Positions 18,549 to 29,260 of a stretch of 55,786 nt of DNA are shown piece after piece. The DNA is from Clostridia bacterium (GTDB lineage Bacteria > Bacillota > Clostridia > Oscillospirales > Butyricicoccaceae): positions 1-55,786 of the forward strand of contig JAFSBG010000181.1 in NCBI GenBank assembly GCA_017441945.1, written 5' to 3'. The notes under the pieces are model-generated. The model did no database searches. It was not told the origin of the DNA and saw only the letters and a list, made by a program, of their open reading frames with translations. Every line of letters starts with the position of its first letter. Within the stretch, counting starts at the first letter, position 1. Position numbers and translations under genes: made by a program.

Positions 18549-20033
18549 ATGAAAATAGGATTCGACACCGACATATACCTGCAGAAGCAGGCAAAGCACA
18601 TCGAAGAACGCATTGAACAGTTTGGCGGCAAGCTCTATCTTGAGTTTGGCGGCAAGCTCTTTGACGACTATCACGCTTCCCGCGTGCTTCCGGGCTTTGC
18701 GCCTGACGCAAAGATGCAGATGCTCAAGAAGCTGGCTGACAAGGCTGAAGTTGTCATTGTTCTCAACGCTGACGACATTGAAGAAGGCAAGATAAGAGGT
18801 GACCTCGGTATCACTTATGACCAGGAAACTCTCCGCCTTATCGACGCTTTCAGAGAGCTTGAAGTCTATGTCGGCTCGGTCTGCATCACTTGCTTCAAGG
18901 ACCAGCCTGCGGCTGTCGCTTTCAAGAACAAGCTTATAAGCCTCGGCGTTCCTGTATTCCTCCACTATCCTATCAAGGGTTATCCTTCCGACATCGACCA
19001 TGTCATCTCCGATGAAGGCTACGGCAAGAACGAATATATCGAAACAACCCGTCCTCTCGTTGTTGTTACAGCGCCCGGTCCTGGCTCGGGCAAGATGGCA
19101 ACCTGCCTTTCCCAGCTCTATCATGAGCACAAGAGAGGCACAAACGCAGGCTATGTGGAGTATGAGACCTTCCCTGTCTGGAATCTTCCGCTCAAGCACC
19201 CTGTAAACCTTGCTTACGAAGCAGCTACTGCAAACCTCAACGATGTCAATATGATCGACCCTTATCATCTTGAAGCTTACGGTGAAATCGCTGTCAACTA
19301 CAACCGTGATGTTGAGGTCTTCCCTGTTCTTTCGGCTATGTTTGAAAAGCTGATGAACTCCAACCCTTACAAGTCCCCGACAGATATGGGTGTCAACATG
19401 GCAGGCTTCGGCATTATCGATGATGAAGCTGTCAGAGAGGCTGCAAACGCTGAAATCATCCGCCGTTACTATCAGGCTCTTGCCGGTGTAAAGACCGGTA
19501 TTTATACAGAAGAATGTATCGAAAAGATCGAGCTTCTCATGAAGCAGGCGAAAATCTCCATCGAAGACCGCCCTGTTATAAAGAAGGCTCTCGATAAAGC
19601 TGAAGAAACAGGCGCACCTGCCGTTTCCATCCAGCTCGACGACGGTACACTCATCACAGGCAAGACTTCTCCGCTTCTCGGCTCCTGCTCTGCCGCTCTC
19701 CTCAATGCTATCAAGCATCACGCTGGCCTTGCAAAGGAAGTTCTGCTCATCTCCCCAGACGTTATCGAGCCTGTTCAGCGTCTCAAGATCAATGTTATGG
19801 GCAACAGAAATCCTCGACTCCATGCCGACGAAACTCTCATCGCCCTCTGCATAAGCGCCGAAAGCGACCCTGTTGCAAAGCTGGCTTACGAACAGCTTGA
19901 AAAGCTCAAGGGTGCTGAAGCTCATTCGACAGTTATGCTGGCTCAGGTCGACCTCGATGTTTACAGAAAGTTGGGCATCAACCTCACCTGCGAACCAAAA
20001 TACCAGGGCAAGAAATTGTATCATAAGAAGTAA
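18549..20033 (+). CDS. DUF1846 domain protein
   Basis: A 494-residue protein matching DUF1846, a conserved Firmicutes family of about 500 residues with solved structures but no agreed function. It begins IGFDTDIYLQKQAKHI, has a glycine-rich, nucleotide-loop-like APGPGSGKMATCLSQ at about residues 177-191, and ends LNLTCEPKYQGKKL-like. There are no membrane segments. AGGAG precedes the ATG and a strong terminator follows. It stands alone between enolase and the RdgB-like gene. Confidence 0.88.
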   Translation: MKIGFDTDIYLQKQAKHIEERIEQFGGKLYLEFGGKLFDDYHASRVLPGFAPDAKMQMLKKLADKAEVVIVLNADDIEEGKIRGDLGITYDQETLRLIDAFRELEVYVGSVCITCFKDQPAAVAFKNKLISLGVPVFLHYPIKGYPSDIDHVISDEGYGKNEYIETTRPLVVVTAPGPGSGKMATCLSQLYHEHKRGTNAGYVEYETFPVWNLPLKHPVNLAYEAATANLNDVNMIDPYHLEAYGEIAVNYNRDVEVFPVLSAMFEKLMNSNPYKSPTDMGVNMAGFGIIDDEAVREAANAEIIRRYYQALAGVKTGIYTEECIEKIELLMKQAKISIEDRPVIKKALDKAEETGAPAVSIQLDDGTLITGKTSPLLGSCSAALLNAIKHHAGLAKEVLLISPDVIEPVQRLKINVMGNRNPRLHADETLIALCISAESDPVAKLAYEQLEKLKGAEAHSTVMLAQVDLDVYRKLGINLTCEPKYQGKKLYHKK

Positions 20034-20042
20034 GATATATAG

Positions 20043-20070
20043 AAAGACCACTCGTTTGAGTGGTCTTTTT
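20043..20070. terminator. Bidirectional terminator
   Basis: AAAGACCACTC pairs with GAGTGGTCTTT around GTTT. It serves both the DUF1846 gene and the convergent RdgB-like gene. Confidence 0.85.
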
Positions 20071-20672
20071 CACTTCAAAATCTTTCCGAAAAAGTCTCTG
20101 ACACCGTCGTCAACAGATGTGCTGACATCTTTCACATCAAGGTCATAATAATATTTCCCTGTAGCAATATCAACAGATAGTGCATCGAGAGGAAAACCCT
20201 CAACTCGTTTCGTGTGAGGTTTCGATGCCAGAATAAACGGCTCTGTGGCAATCGCCATACTCATGCTTGAATAATGGCGATTTTCGTCAAGAATGAAATA
20301 TATGGCATTTCTGTACCGCCCTGTTATCCTTCCGCCGTATCGGTTGGCAAGAGCGGCATAATGCTCAATCATCTGCTCATCGGTAAGCTCAATGCCATTT
20401 ACTCTGCGTATATGAAGCCCCGGCTGGTCAGAATCTGCAACTTCATCGAAATAAAGTCCGCTGTCGCAGGAAAATACAGGGATACCAAAGGCTTTATAAT
20501 AAGCCCTCGCCTTGATCCGGGCATTTTCAAGCGGCGTGTTTCCGCTTTCGCTAATAACAGGAAGCTCTTTTTCAATATCATTCAGCCCTATAAGCTGTAT
20601 ATCCATATTCTTCAGGGCATTTTTCATAGCCTGCAGCTTGGCTTTGTTTGTTGTTCCGTATAAAATCTTCAT
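20070..20672 (-). CDS. RdgB/HAM1-like non-canonical purine NTP pyrophosphatase
   Basis: A 200-residue protein of the family that hydrolyses ITP, XTP and dITP to monophosphates, keeping deaminated purines out of nucleic acids. It has the GTTNKAK start motif, GNTPLENARIKA (usual form GxTFxENAxxKA) and FSCDSGLYFD (usual ADDSGL). It diverges enough that substrate choice may differ. The ATG at 20672 was preferred over a TTG at 20693; neither has a clear ribosome site. Confidence 0.75.
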   Translation of the reverse strand: MKILYGTTNKAKLQAMKNALKNMDIQLIGLNDIEKELPVISESGNTPLENARIKARAYYKAFGIPVFSCDSGLYFDEVADSDQPGLHIRRVNGIELTDEQMIEHYAALANRYGGRITGRYRNAIYFILDENRHYSSMSMAIATEPFILASKPHTKRVEGFPLDALSVDIATGKYYYDLDVKDVSTSVDDGVRDFFGKILK

Positions 20673-20685
20673 ATATAAAATATTT

Positions 20686-20714
20686 AAGGGCAATCGGAAA
20701 GATTGCCCTTTTTT
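20686..20714. terminator. Terminator between the Prx-VOC and RdgB-like genes
   Basis: A 10-bp stem (AAGGGCAATC with GATTGCCCTT), loop GGAAA. It has six T on the plus strand and an interrupted T-rich tract on the minus strand, the direction of both flanking genes, so some read-through into the RdgB-like gene is likely. Confidence 0.7.
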
Positions 20715-23469: not shown

Positions 23470-24981
23470 ATGAAACGATTATTCAGCTTGATTTTAATAA
23501 TGGCAACCCTGCTGGCAGGCTGCACGGCGAAAAGCATTGAGACCGAGCCGCTGACACAGGGGATGCCTCTCGACACCCGTACCGATATCGTCATCGCCAG
23601 CGGCTATGATATCGTCACTCTTGACCCGCATGAGGCAAGTGATACATACTCCATCGAAGTCATCAGCATGATTTATGAGCAGCTCATCGGAGTCGGCAAG
23701 GACGGCAAATACCGCCCTGAATTAGCTGAAAACTGGGAGATTGCCGACGATACTCAGTATGTTTTCCATCTTAAAAAGGGTGTACACTTCCACAACGGCA
23801 GGGAAATGACAGCGGAAGACGTTGTTTTCTCCCTAAAACGCGCCACACAGCACATAACCTCAAAAGCCGCTCTCGAAAATGTCCAGTCTATCGAGGCTCT
23901 CGATGAATACACAGTGAAAATCACGACAGACACTCCGTATTCGACGCTTATGCGTAACCTCACAACTTCCCACACTTCGATACTCTGCAAAACTGCTGTG
24001 GAAAATGACGATCTTGCCGAAGTAAGCGGCACAGGACCTATGATTTTCACACAGTACAAGCCAAATTATCAGACGATTCTCACACGAAATAATGAATATT
24101 GGGGTGAAAAAGCCACAGTTTCCACCCTTACGCGCCGCGTTATCCCTGATGACAGCGCACGCACAATCGCTCTTGAAAACGGCGAGATCGACTATGTTTC
24201 AAATCTGCCGTCTGTTGACATTGCCAGAGTTAAGGAAAATCCTGCTCTCAAGACTTTTGAGACGGTATCTTCCAATATAGCTTATCTCGGCTTCAACACT
24301 TCAAAGGCACCATTTAACGATACACGCGTCCGTCAGGCGCTCCATTTTGCAACTGATAAGCAGAAGATAATCGACAACATCTATGAAGGCTACGGCACAG
24401 CCTGCAAATCGGTTTTTCCGACAACTCTTGAAGGCTACAACGATGAGCTGGACCTCTATCCTTTCGATATGGAAAGAGCCCGCAAAACTCTTACGGCTTC
24501 GGGTTATCCTGATGGGTTTGATATGGAAATTGTGCTTTCTGCCGACGACAGAAGCCGTATTGCCCAGCTTCTGCAGGATGATTACAGAAAACTCGGCGTA
24601 AACATCACGATAAACCAGATGGAGTTTTCCTCTTTCCTTCAGTATCTTGAGCAGGACAAGCACGATGCATTCATCATGAGCTGGAGCGAAGGCTATAACC
24701 ACGACCTTTCTGCCACAACCAACTTCCATTCAAAGGGCGGAAACAAGATGCATTACCACAATATCACTGTCGACCAGATAATCGAGCGTGCCAGAGAAAC
24801 TCTCGATTGGGAAATGCGTGAGCCGCTTTATAAGGAGCTTCAGCATCTTGTAATGCGCGATTCTGTCTGGATACCGATAATTCAGCACACCTATGTTTCG
24901 GCAATGAACAAGGACCTTCGTTTTGATGAAAAGAAGGAAAATCCGCGAGGATATATCGACCTGATCGTAAAGAGCGAATAA
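23470..24981 (+). CDS. Lipoprotein peptide-binding protein (SBP_bac_5), copy 2
   Basis: A 503-residue paralogue of the preceding protein, with lipobox LLAGCTAK (Cys18) and the same family motifs (GVHFHNGREMTAEDVVFSLKR, NEYWGEKATV, IALENGEIDYVSNLPSVDI). The two align over their whole length and clearly arose by tandem duplication, yet each has its own promoter and terminator. They may tune one importer to different peptides; this is inference. Confidence 0.92.
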   Translation: MKRLFSLILIMATLLAGCTAKSIETEPLTQGMPLDTRTDIVIASGYDIVTLDPHEASDTYSIEVISMIYEQLIGVGKDGKYRPELAENWEIADDTQYVFHLKKGVHFHNGREMTAEDVVFSLKRATQHITSKAALENVQSIEALDEYTVKITTDTPYSTLMRNLTTSHTSILCKTAVENDDLAEVSGTGPMIFTQYKPNYQTILTRNNEYWGEKATVSTLTRRVIPDDSARTIALENGEIDYVSNLPSVDIARVKENPALKTFETVSSNIAYLGFNTSKAPFNDTRVRQALHFATDKQKIIDNIYEGYGTACKSVFPTTLEGYNDELDLYPFDMERARKTLTASGYPDGFDMEIVLSADDRSRIAQLLQDDYRKLGVNITINQMEFSSFLQYLEQDKHDAFIMSWSEGYNHDLSATTNFHSKGGNKMHYHNITVDQIIERARETLDWEMREPLYKELQHLVMRDSVWIPIIQHTYVSAMNKDLRFDEKKENPRGYIDLIVKSE

Positions 24982-24984
24982 TAT

Positions 24985-25016
24985 AAAAAAGACCACCTGT
25001 AAAAGGTGGTTTTTTA
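24985..25016 (+). terminator. Terminator copy flanking the RAYT gene (left)
   Basis: AAAGACCACCT-GTAA-AAGGTGGT with flanking A and T runs. It ends binding protein 2 and directly touches the RAYT stop codon. A near-identical copy is at 25523-25554. Confidence 0.85.
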
Positions 25017-25508
25017 TTCTATGTAAAAGCAGTCCTTCTGCCAACGGATAACATTAGTGTCGATATATTCCCATATTTGTTTGTAATCACGCTCGCCACG
25101 GATTATATGGTCGTGAAATGAGGTCTGAAATAAATGTTTGTCTTTCAAACCGGCTTTTCTACATTTTATGGTGGTTATCGACTTAAATGCACACACCACA
25201 TCTGATATTGTAGGGCGGGGACTTGCTCCCGCCGTACTAAGCGATATTATCGCGTGTATATGATTGGGCATTATAACATACTTATCAATTTTTACGCATT
25301 GATATCGTAGTTCAAGCAAATTTATCGGTTCGTCGGCAATTTTGCCGTAAACCGAAAGATTATTTTCGGCGAGGGCAAGCCCCCGCCCTACGGTTATGTT
25401 GCCTAAAAGCTGCATCATATCCTTAGTGCAAATCGTCACGAAATATGCACCTGGCATTGAATAATCAAACTGTTTTAGCCGTGGATTTTTCCTTTTCGGA
25501 AATTCCAT
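25014..25508 (-). CDS. REP-associated tyrosine transposase (RAYT), Y1 HUH family
   Basis: A 164-residue single-strand DNA transposase of the IS200/RAYT type. It has the HUH motif MPNHIHAII (His83, His85) and the C-terminal FHDHIIRGERDYKQIWEYID region with Tyr148 as the likely nucleophile (Tyr142 the alternative). RAYTs are single-copy domesticated relatives that act on genomic REP hairpins. Two GC-rich repeats of the local extragenic type are embedded in frame: residues 38-47 (TVGRGLA) and about 91-100 (TAGASPRPT). AAGGAGG precedes the ATG, but only 14 bases separate the gene from the purL terminator, so no promoter of its own is visible. Confidence 0.88.
   Translation of the reverse strand: MEFPKRKNPRLKQFDYSMPGAYFVTICTKDMMQLLGNITVGRGLALAENNLSVYGKIADEPINLLELRYQCVKIDKYVIMPNHIHAIISLSTAGASPRPTISDVVCAFKSITTIKCRKAGLKDKHLFQTSFHDHIIRGERDYKQIWEYIDTNVIRWQKDCFYIE
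25210..25237. repeat. REP-like repeat inside the RAYT gene, copy a
   Basis: A GTAGGGCGGG...CCCGCCGTAC palindromic repeat in the coding sequence, of the same type as the extragenic copy at 12489-12514. It is inverted relative to copy b. Confidence 0.8.
25367..25391. repeat. REP-like repeat inside the RAYT gene, copy b
   Basis: Read on the minus strand it equals the extragenic repeat at 12489-12514 apart from one missing G. Copies a and b could base-pair over about 25 bases in single-stranded DNA or mRNA. Confidence 0.85.
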
Positions 25509-25522
25509 ACTGCCTCCTTACT

Positions 25523-25554
25523 AAAAAGACCACCTGTAAAAGGTGGTCTTTTTA
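25523..25554 (-). terminator. Terminator of purL; second copy flanking the RAYT gene
   Basis: The same AAAGACCACCT-GTAA-AAGGTGGTCTTTTT hairpin as at 24985-25016. It lies 11 bases past the purL stop and 15 bases before the RAYT start. Confidence 0.85.
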
Positions 25555-25564
25555 TGTTTACCTA

Positions 25565-28500
25565 TTATTTGTAGTAGTCTACAGCACCCTTGAAGATGAG
25601 CTGTTCCTGTGTATCAGGTACATTCTTATAGAGGTGGAGACCGTTACGTTCTGTGTGGCCCATCTTACCGAATACACGTCCGTCTGGGGATGTGATACCT
25701 TCGATAGCCATTACAGAGTTGTTAGGGTTGAACAGGATATCGCTTGTTGCGTTGCCGTTAAGGTCGACATACTGAGTTGCGATCTGGCCATTCTTGATGA
25801 GCTTCTTGAGCTCCTTCTCGTTTGCGATGAAGCGGCCTTCACCGTGGGAGATAGCGATAGTATGGATGTCGCCAACATTAGTATGCATGAGCCATGGGGA
25901 CTTGTTGGAAGCGATTCTTGTATGAACAAGGCGGGACTGATGTCTGCCGATTGTGTTGAATGTGAGTGTTGGGTTGTTTTCGTTTGGCTCAACAATCTTG
26001 CCGTATGGAACGAGACCGAGCTTTACGAGTGCCTGGAAGCCGTTGCAGATACCGCACATAAGACCGTCACGCTTATTAAGGAGAGCACGGATTTCCTTTG
26101 CAACACGTGGGTTTCTGAGGAGGGAAACGATGAACTTTGCAGAGCCGTCTGGTTCGTCACCGCCAGAGAAGCCGCCAGGAAGAGCCACGATATGGCTGTT
26201 CTTGATAGCTGTTGCAAGACGCTTTGCGCTTTCCTGAACTTCTTCAGGAGTTCTGTTTCTTACAACAAAGATCTCTGTCTTTGCGCCGTACTTTTCAAAT
26301 GCGCGAGCTGTATCGTATTCACAGTTTGTGCCTGGGAATACAGGGATGAGAACGCTTGGCTGTGGAGCCTTGACAAGTGGAGAAAGAACCTTTTCAGCCT
26401 TGTAGGAAAGGTTTTCATAGATCTTGTTTTCTTCGCCGCCTGTTGTTGGATATACAGGTTCAAGTGTTTCTGCCCAGAGCTTTTCAAGCTTTTCGATGGA
26501 AAGAATGTTGCCGTGAACATAGATGTTGTAATCCTTAGTTGTAACACCGATCTTCTTGCCGAAACGAAGAACACCGTCTGTTTCAACTACGAATGCACCG
26601 TACTTCTTTTCAAAGAGCTCTTCCTGAGAAAGAGTATTGACAAGCTTTGCACCGATCTTGTTACCGAATGCCATCTTTGTGACAGCTTCTGCGATACCGC
26701 CTACGCCGACTGCATAAGCAGAAAGGATGCGCTTATCTTCGATAGCCTTCTGGACATTCTTGAATGTCTTGACGAGGGATTCCTTATTGTAAAGGCCGTT
26801 TTCATCCTTTTCAGGCTGGATGAGATAGAGGCTTGTGTCGTTTCTCTTGAATTCAGGAGAAATTACATTGTCAGCCTTAGTTGCGGAAGCAACGAAGGAG
26901 ATAAGTGTTGGTGGAACGTCGATGTCTTCGAAAGAGCCGGACATGGAGTCCTTACCGCCGATAGCGCCGAGACCGAGAGCGAGCTGAGCTTCAAAGCCGC
27001 CGAGGAGGGCTGCAAATGGCTTACCCCAACGCTTAGGGTCCTTACGGAGTCTTTCAAAGTATTCCTGGAAGGAGAGCCATGCATTCTTCATGTCGCCGCC
27101 TGCTGCAATCATCTTTGCAACAGAGGAAACAACTGCATAGTATGCGCCATAATATGGGCTCTGCTGTGCGAGGAATGGGTCATAGCCATAAGCCATGACG
27201 GAAGCTGTATTTGTATTGCCTTCACGGACAGGAATGAGAGCTGCCATAGCCTGTGCAGGTGTCATCTGGCGCTTGCCGCCGAATGGCATAAGCACTGTGC
27301 CTGCGCCGATAGTTGCGTCGAAGCGTTCAACAAGACCGCGCTGGGAAGCAACGTTGAGGCTTGCCATCATATATTCCCAAGCTTCGTCCAGCGGAGCATT
27401 TTCAACCTGCTGTGTAAGAGCATCATTGAGGATTTCAACCTGTGCAAACTTTGTTGCGCCTGCGGAGTTGAGGAAGTCACGGGAAAGGTCAACGATCTTT
27501 TCGCCTTCGTGGAAGATTTCAAGACGGTTTGTATCTGTAACTTCTGCAACAACAACTGCAGAGAGGTTTTCCTTGTTTGCTTCCTTTACGAATCTTTCAG
27601 CGTCCTTAGCTGCTACAACAACAGCCATTCTTTCCTGAGATTCGGAGATAGCAAGTTCTGTGCCTGTGAGACCGTCGTACTTCTTTGGTACTACGTCGAG
27701 GTTGATCTTGAGAGAGTCAGCAAGCTCGCCGATAGCAACAGAAACACCGCCTGCGCCGAAGTCGTTGCAGCGCTTGATCATACGTGTAACCTTGCCGTTA
27801 CGGAAGAGACGCTGGATCTTTCTTTCTTCAGGTGGATTACCCTTCTGAACTTCTGCGCCGCAGGATTCGAGAGATGTTACGTCGTGAGCCTTGGAGGAGC
27901 CGGAAGCACCGCCAACGCCGTCACGGCCTGTTGCGCCGCCGAGGAGGATAACTACGTCGCCGCATTCAGGGCTCTTGCGGATAACATTCTTTGCAGGAGC
28001 AGCACCGATAACAGCGCCGACTTCCATACGCTTTGCTACGAAGCCATCGTGGTAAACTTCAGCAACATGGCCTGTTGCAAGACCAATCTGGTTGCCGTAG
28101 GAGCTGTAACCTGCAGCAGCTGTCTGGCAGATCTTGCTCTGTGGGAGCTTGCCCTTGAGAGTGTCAGCTACAGGTGTGAGAGGATTGCCTGCACCTGTGA
28201 GACGCATTGCCTGATATACATAGCTTCTGCCGGAGAGCGGGTCACGGATTGCGCCGCCGAGGCATGTTGCTGCGCCGCCGAATGGTTCGATTTCTGTTGG
28301 GTGGTTATGTGTTTCGTTCTTGAACATCATGAGCCACTTCTGCTTCTTGCCGTCGACATCAACGTTGATCTTTACGGAGCAAGCATTGATTTCTTCAGAT
28401 TCGTCGAGGTTCTTCATGATGCCTGTTCTCTTGAGGTACTTTGCGCCCAGTGTTGCAAGGTCCATAAGAGTACATGGACGGTTCTTGTTAGGATAGAGCT

Positions 28501-29260
28501 GTTCCTTGATTTCGAGGTACTTGTCATAGGAAGCCTTTACCGCTGCGTGCTCGATCTTGATTTCGTCGATCTGTGTCATAAATGTTGTATGACGGCAGTG
28601 GTCGGACCAATAAGTGTCGATCATCTTAAGCTCTGTAAGGCTTGGGTCGCGCTTTTCTTCATTCTTGAAGTAGTTCTGGCAGAATGCTACGTCGTCTGTA
28701 TCCATAGCAAGGCCGTATTCCTTAATGAAACCAGCGAACTTGTCCTCTGTCATATTGATAAAGCCTTCAATATATGGAGTCTTTTCAGGAACAGGCTGGA
28801 TGTTTTCAAGTGTTTCAAACTTTTCAAGGGATGCTTCTCTCATTTCAACAGGGTTGATAATGTGAGCCTTGATGCGTGCAACTTCCTGTTCGGAAAGCTT
28901 ACCGTTAAGAACGATAACCTTTGCACAGCGGCAGATTGGACGAACGCCGCCTGTTACGAACTGGATGCACTGCTGAGCGGAGTCTGCTCTCTGGTCAAAC
29001 TGGCCAGGGAGGAACTCGATGCCGAAGATGATGCCTTCGTCATTTACTTCGAAGCATACATCGTCGACCTGTGGCTCGGAGAAGACACTCTTGATTGTCT
29101 TCTGGAATGTTTCTTCGTCGATGCCTTCGACGTCATATCTGTTGTAGATTTTGATATCCTCAAGGTTTACGATACCGAGATTCTTTCTGATATCGTTAAG
29201 CATTGAGCGCTCTTCGTTGGCAAACTCAGCCTTTTTGGATACATAAACTCTAAATACCAT
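25565..29260 (-). CDS. purL: Phosphoribosylformylglycinamidine synthase, single chain
   Basis: A 1231-residue large-type FGAM synthase (step 4 of purine synthesis), with a PurS-like N-terminus, two PurM-like ATP-binding halves and a C-terminal glutamine amidotransferase. The amidotransferase triad is Cys1072 (CGICNG), His1139 and Glu1141 (SHGEG). Separate purS and purQ genes are therefore not needed. The start at 29260 overlaps the end of purD by 11 bases, with GGGGG upstream. It is the last gene of the purine operon. An uninterrupted frame on the opposite strand is a codon-bias shadow. Confidence 0.96.
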   Translation of the reverse strand: MVFRVYVSKKAEFANEERSMLNDIRKNLGIVNLEDIKIYNRYDVEGIDEETFQKTIKSVFSEPQVDDVCFEVNDEGIIFGIEFLPGQFDQRADSAQQCIQFVTGGVRPICRCAKVIVLNGKLSEQEVARIKAHIINPVEMREASLEKFETLENIQPVPEKTPYIEGFINMTEDKFAGFIKEYGLAMDTDDVAFCQNYFKNEEKRDPSLTELKMIDTYWSDHCRHTTFMTQIDEIKIEHAAVKASYDKYLEIKEQLYPNKNRPCTLMDLATLGAKYLKRTGIMKNLDESEEINACSVKINVDVDGKKQKWLMMFKNETHNHPTEIEPFGGAATCLGGAIRDPLSGRSYVYQAMRLTGAGNPLTPVADTLKGKLPQSKICQTAAAGYSSYGNQIGLATGHVAEVYHDGFVAKRMEVGAVIGAAPAKNVIRKSPECGDVVILLGGATGRDGVGGASGSSKAHDVTSLESCGAEVQKGNPPEERKIQRLFRNGKVTRMIKRCNDFGAGGVSVAIGELADSLKINLDVVPKKYDGLTGTELAISESQERMAVVVAAKDAERFVKEANKENLSAVVVAEVTDTNRLEIFHEGEKIVDLSRDFLNSAGATKFAQVEILNDALTQQVENAPLDEAWEYMMASLNVASQRGLVERFDATIGAGTVLMPFGGKRQMTPAQAMAALIPVREGNTNTASVMAYGYDPFLAQQSPYYGAYYAVVSSVAKMIAAGGDMKNAWLSFQEYFERLRKDPKRWGKPFAALLGGFEAQLALGLGAIGGKDSMSGSFEDIDVPPTLISFVASATKADNVISPEFKRNDTSLYLIQPEKDENGLYNKESLVKTFKNVQKAIEDKRILSAYAVGVGGIAEAVTKMAFGNKIGAKLVNTLSQEELFEKKYGAFVVETDGVLRFGKKIGVTTKDYNIYVHGNILSIEKLEKLWAETLEPVYPTTGGEENKIYENLSYKAEKVLSPLVKAPQPSVLIPVFPGTNCEYDTARAFEKYGAKTEIFVVRNRTPEEVQESAKRLATAIKNSHIVALPGGFSGGDEPDGSAKFIVSLLRNPRVAKEIRALLNKRDGLMCGICNGFQALVKLGLVPYGKIVEPNENNPTLTFNTIGRHQSRLVHTRIASNKSPWLMHTNVGDIHTIAISHGEGRFIANEKELKKLIKNGQIATQYVDLNGNATSDILFNPNNSVMAIEGITSPDGRVFGKMGHTERNGLHLYKNVPDTQEQLIFKGAVDYYK

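Follow-up and report, generated by a model that had tools for sequence, protein, structure and literature searches.

The TnpA-REP protein of E. coli cleaves single-stranded REP and requires its GTAG tag (PMC8266576). Passages of Di Nocera et al. (2013) report that GTAG-REPs occur in ORFs and propose that RAYTs are expressed by read-through (PMC3733652), and, according to the main text of a 2018 report, tnpA-REP genes of subclass 2.4 contain in-frame REPs, in general located from HUH to Y (PMC6006769). The usual view of RAYTs is that they are domesticated transposases that do not move, and what keeps such an enzyme together with its REP family is an open question. We analyzed a stretch of 55,786 nucleotides from a Clostridia bacterium (the window; contig JAFSBG010000181.1) in which a RAYT gene is bracketed by two near-identical hairpins, hp1 and hp2. 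The best explanation, to which we give a probability of about 0.68, is that the hairpins are ordinary terminators derived from an ancestral single hairpin by local copying and that the RAYT recognizes GTAG-REPs rather than these hairpins.

The open reading frame at 25014-25508 is matched by both Pfam Y1_Tnp and NCBIfam REP_Tyr_transpos, the latter at 61.6 bits, under its curated cut-off of 80; the same NCBIfam profile matches 39/39 aligned homologues at E <= 0.001. A profile search matched the protein to the E. coli RAYT 4er8 at 1.4e-11, and its predicted structure (pLDDT 85.7) matched 4er8 with a TM of 0.62 as well as IS200/IS605 transposases. It has the HUH motif and downstream tyrosine of a RAYT in a Y1 fold, with H83, H85, and Y148 invariant. 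Profile searches identified its neighborhood as purL and two genes for family-5 solute-binding proteins (Table 1). The gene is fitted closely between the hairpins, its stop codon (25014-25016) overlapping the tail of hp1 and its start codon, preceded by a good Shine-Dalgarno sequence, lying 14 nt from hp2.

Table 1. Features of the RAYT locus, in window coordinates
Feature	Position	Strand	Basis
hp0, related GACCAC-type terminator (predicted), between a 494-aa gene (18549-20033, +) and a 207-aa gene (20070-20693, -)	20044..20067	.	sequence
SBP2, family-5 solute-binding protein gene, convergent with the RAYT	23470..24981	+	profile search
hp1, predicted bidirectional intrinsic terminator common to the binding-protein gene (+) and the RAYT (-)	24986..25015	.	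sequence, folding
RAYT / TnpA-REP gene, 164 aa, HUH-Y1 nuclease	25014..25508	-	profile searches, predicted fold
Codon of invariant tyrosine Y148, putatively catalytic	25065..25067	-	alignment
3' intragenic REP, inverted, GTAGGGCGGGGACTTGCTCCCGCC, encoding about residues 92-100 (TAGASPRPT), loop after HUH strand	25210..25233	+	sequence, predicted structure
HUH codons (H83-I-H85), with an intragenic REP on either side	25254..25262	-	invariant alignment columns H83, H85
5' intragenic REP, GTAGGGCGGGGGCTTGCCCTCGCC, encoding residues 40-47 (VGRGLALA), loop before HUH strand	25368..25391	-	sequence, predicted structure
Shine-Dalgarno AAGGAGG of the RAYT	25513..25519	-	sequence
hp2, second copy of the predicted terminator, lying between purL and the RAYT	25523..25552	.	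sequence, folding
purL (FGAM synthase), upstream of the RAYT, co-directional	25565..29260	-	profile search

The two 30-nt hairpin units are 29/30 identical and lie in the same orientation, with the RAYT gene as the only content between them. They share AAAAAGACCACCTGTAAAAGGTGGT without mismatch (24986-25010 and 25523-25547), and the sole difference is T/C at the foot of the 3' arm. An earlier, sequence-only reading had recognized the same hairpin at both ends of the RAYT and located both sites correctly; the exact ends that it gave were off by 1-2 bases and are now 24986-25015 and 25523-25552. No such match appeared in 100 dinucleotide shuffles of the window, and the exact sequence has no further copy anywhere in the 2.26-Mb genome that contains the window (G000, a draft bin of 184 contigs). 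A pattern with a free loop and up to 2 mismatches found a single additional site in this genome, a related hairpin at C48:32313. The 40-nt flanks of hp1 and hp2 are ~20% identical, with homology confined to the hairpin, which rules out segmental duplication as the source of the pair.

RNA folding of the two strands gave -16.1 and -12.3 kcal/mol for hp1 and -20.9 and -20.0 kcal/mol for hp2, with z-scores on both strands of -4.1 to -6.8, and this good folding on either strand gives the pair the appearance of bidirectional terminators. Each is a GC-rich hairpin followed by a T tract at gene 3' ends, as in intrinsic terminators, and we predict that both are ordinary bidirectional intrinsic terminators that would end transcription in the cell. 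They belong to a recurrent GACCAC type of terminator, for which we found nine hairpin sites in G000, nine in G001, and two in G002, compared with 0 for a reversed-pattern control.

G001 and G002 are the two genomes of the same-genus comparison; both are draft assemblies whose contigs break within the block under comparison. In G002, SBP1 and purL converge on a single bidirectional GACCAC-type hairpin, AAAAGACCACCCCGTTGGAGTGGTCTTTTTT, and the RAYT is absent there; this one terminator copy downstream of purL in a RAYT-free relative supports the earlier proposal that purL and the binding-protein gene were convergent on one shared bidirectional terminator. Family-level relatives have no RAYT at purL and different terminators. 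G001 carries an orthologous RAYT (87% aa) convergent with an orthologous SBP2, and upstream of it stands the 494-aa gene whose end in the window is at 20033. This RAYT has two hairpins, GACCACTCGTATGAGTGGTC, a diverged form on the SBP2 side, and GGCACTCACAATGAGTGCC, which is unrelated, on the other side. The purL gene of G001 is accompanied by a second RAYT (60%), which is encoded on the other strand and has a different terminator. The gene order of the window is collinear with that of G002, and therefore it is probably G001 that carries an inversion of this block, to judge from contigs that break within it. Because the RAYT-SBP2 pair of G001 has a different hairpin, the history of the locus was not one simple insertion. 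The identity of hp1 and hp2 looks younger than the pairing of RAYT and SBP2, since the SBP2-side hairpin differs between G000 and G001 and the G000 copies are near-identical; it must stem from later copying or homogenization, or from a lineage-specific event tied to the inversion. As a separate observation, G002 has two near-identical RAYTs (L104 6948-7445 and L102 3-245) with a contig gap between them, one adjoining the 207-aa gene and one behind a peroxiredoxin-like gene, and these possibly flank the 207-aa gene.

The main proposal of the sequence-only reading was that arrival of the RAYT duplicated the shared terminator, much as in a target duplication, and we consider this possible at somewhat less than even odds. 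The single hairpin of the RAYT-free G002 speaks for it, as do two further unlinked RAYT loci from other Clostridia with doubled terminators of other sequence (L159 and L197). Of 80 RAYT loci with usable flanks, 7 are flanked by direct repeats 16 nt or longer; three of these repeats are terminators (window, L159, and L197), and the rest are REPs or fell outside the terminator class. At L159, from a goat-rumen Clostridia bin, a 31-nt exact repeat is found in the order gene, hairpin, RAYT, hairpin, convergent binding-protein gene, as in the window, and the 20-nt terminator repeat of L197 is present too at the orthologous L196 locus. Terminator-type flanking repeats occur at 3/80 RAYTs compared with ~1/925 other genes of similar size (Fisher P 0.0018), but the terminator class was defined after the data had been seen, and the enrichment drops to P 0.06 when all non-REP flanking repeats are counted; as a feature of RAYTs, terminator doubling at this frequency is suggestive only. 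Duplication on arrival also has to contend with G001, where the RAYT adjoins the corresponding binding-protein gene and has no twin hairpin, and with L159, for which an empty site was not found and no examined relative keeps the same gene pair. Furthermore, IS200/IS605-type enzymes are not known to produce target duplications.

A second account, which we hold tentatively and rate a little below an even chance, is that the twin is unlinked to the RAYT and that this lineage copies terminators between neighboring genes, for example by template switching from one palindrome to another close by, or by gene conversion. Terminator statistics for G000 were gathered from 804 kb, divided into 610 kb (the window, L124-L143, and L205-L223) and a 194-kb hold-out (L264-L283). 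In the 610 kb, 21/129 pairs of adjacent terminators reach 80% similarity or more where ~2 are expected, an excess that decays with distance; the stems of neighbors are often near-identical, and their flanks are unrelated. An identical pair also surrounds a non-RAYT gene, at C134 of G000, where identical 26-nt GACCAC terminators at 1814 and 4341 (L119, L121) follow a glycerol-kinase-like gene and the next gene, with no RAYT between. The effect is nevertheless uneven, the hold-out giving 1/37 like pairs compared with 0.44 expected; the excess is borderline in G001 (P 0.05), and none was seen in G002 or in another genome, G007. We do not claim a general habit of like neighboring terminators, as the 610-kb signal failed in the 194-kb hold-out. 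Two other repeat arrangements were recorded: at L214 (860-1900), a VanW-like gene is bracketed by two ~60-nt copies of a terminator plus promoter-like stretch, and at L304, downstream of the query gene, there are tandem repeats whose unit contains a terminator and a promoter-like stretch.

According to the explanation that we favor, that of ordinary terminators and local copying, one bidirectional hairpin would ancestrally have served purL and the convergent binding-protein gene, and its twin would have been made by local copying, whether as the RAYT inserted or through homogenization at a later time. The RAYT would now lie between two copies, with hp2 ending most purL transcripts and hp1 ending those of both the RAYT and the binding-protein gene; it would use its own ribosome-binding site and probably depend on read-through of hp2 for its transcription. 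RAYT transcripts most likely arise when transcription of the upstream gene continues into the RAYT, because a promoter scan found no sigma-70-like promoter upstream of the RAYT and a co-directional gene precedes the RAYT in 73/78 cases, often with an overlap at its stop or within a few nt, compared with a background of 69% among other genes of similar size (Fisher P 1e-6). The suggestion that the RAYT may depend on read-through past the purL terminator is plausible in light of this placement.

The coding sequence of the window RAYT holds two GTAG-tagged palindromes, mutually inverted, on either side of the HUH codons. Among 82 RAYTs, intragenic REPs occupy fixed sites, the 5' site in 60, the 3' site in 65, and both in 53. 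The 5' REP is in frame 0 in 60/60 and nearly always lies 114-135 nt before the HUH codons, and several homologues without it are shorter at that site. REP sequences vary widely from gene to gene, yet the two REPs of one RAYT match: their similarity inside one gene is 0.912 compared with 0.670 after shuffling (P<5e-5, a value that treats genes as unrelated and ignores kinship), and their identity is 0.907 compared with 0.598 after synonymous codon randomization of the same peptides, which argues for a DNA-level constraint on the pair. Hairpin-based REP detection biases the stem statistic and leaves the 5'/3' identity unaffected. A variant of the 5' site was seen at L188 (3001-3555), where the RAYT has four tandem 30-nt REPs encoding an in-frame 10-residue repeat.

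Outside RAYTs, the REP of the window RAYT is present in 8-9 copies in 804 kb of G000 and in none in 400 kb of G007, and is thus a cognate palindrome dispersed in its host genome. Most G000 RAYTs have cognate REPs dispersed in G000, with up to 42 copies per 804 kb, one RAYT having only 0-1; these dispersed REPs are absent from 400 kb of G007 and, in the reverse case, the REP of a G007 RAYT occurs in G007 but in none of the G000 stretches. The anatomy, fixed sites, reading frame, matching inside each gene, and match to dispersed genomic REPs are all evident from sequence; the RAYT carries a cognate inverted GTAG-REP pair (REPIN) inside its own coding sequence, and GTAG-REPs are its likely substrates, which it would bind and cleave.

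That hp1 and hp2 are ends recognized by the RAYT in the style of an insertion sequence, the alternative in the sequence-only reading, is highly improbable: their position alone favors it, but the exact hairpin is confined to this locus, other RAYT places in G000 lack it and adjoin different terminators, the orthologous RAYT of G001 has different hairpins, and hp1 and hp2 have no GTAG tag, the RAYT holding GTAG-REPs instead. RAYT copies elsewhere without the hairpin had been named as what would speak against transposase ends, and such copies were found in G000. The same ends do not recur at other copies as they would in an insertion sequence, and with too few copies, missing at other RAYTs, the hairpins were rejected both as RAYT ends and as a REP family.

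A matched REP pair in the coding sequence of the enzyme, conserved in DNA and shared with genomic REPs, would tie the enzyme to its target and allow their co-evolution to be read from single genes. The doubled terminators at three unlinked RAYT loci could be a trace left by movement of the RAYT gene. The more far-reaching proposition, that in gut Clostridia RAYTs are mobile units of one gene each that enter intrinsic terminators and double them, and carry their own intragenic REPIN as a built-in, co-evolving source or address inseparable from the enzyme, is speculative and in our estimate unlikely.

Like the REPtron/REPIN of E. coli and Pseudomonas, the locus has a RAYT whose cognate GTAG-tagged palindromes are scattered through the host genome; in those systems the gene has REPs at its flanks, whereas here they are intragenic and the flanking hairpins are predicted terminators (PMC3116915, PMC8266576). 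The GTAG-tagged palindromic repeats of Di Nocera et al. have in common with those described here the GTAG tag, the GC-rich stem, and the occurrence of REPs in ORFs; the text available from that work has no mention of Clostridia, and its passages do not describe terminator doubling (PMC3733652). Another related system is TnpA-REP subclass 2.4, which in its main-text description shares the HUH-Y1 protein, the NHIH motif, in-frame GTAG-REPs in the coding sequence, and a variable loop from HUH to Y (PMC6006769). The window RAYT has NHIH and intragenic REPs, and the YIxNNP motif of the subclass reads YIDTNV in the window and YIDxNP in the family consensus. In contrast to subclass 2.4 as described there, the genes reported here are clostridial and usually have two fixed sites flanking the HUH codons with a matched inverted pair; the main text of that report, supplementary figure S10 apart, gives no description of a matched REP pair (PMC6006769). 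As far as the accessible text of these reports goes, a fixed, matched REP pair around the HUH codons in Clostridia appears to be new, part of which the supplement of PMC6006769 may already show. Within the same body of text, the apparent DNA-level constraint on this pair and its match to the dispersed REPs of the host also seem to be new, as do the three cases of terminator doubling at RAYT loci.
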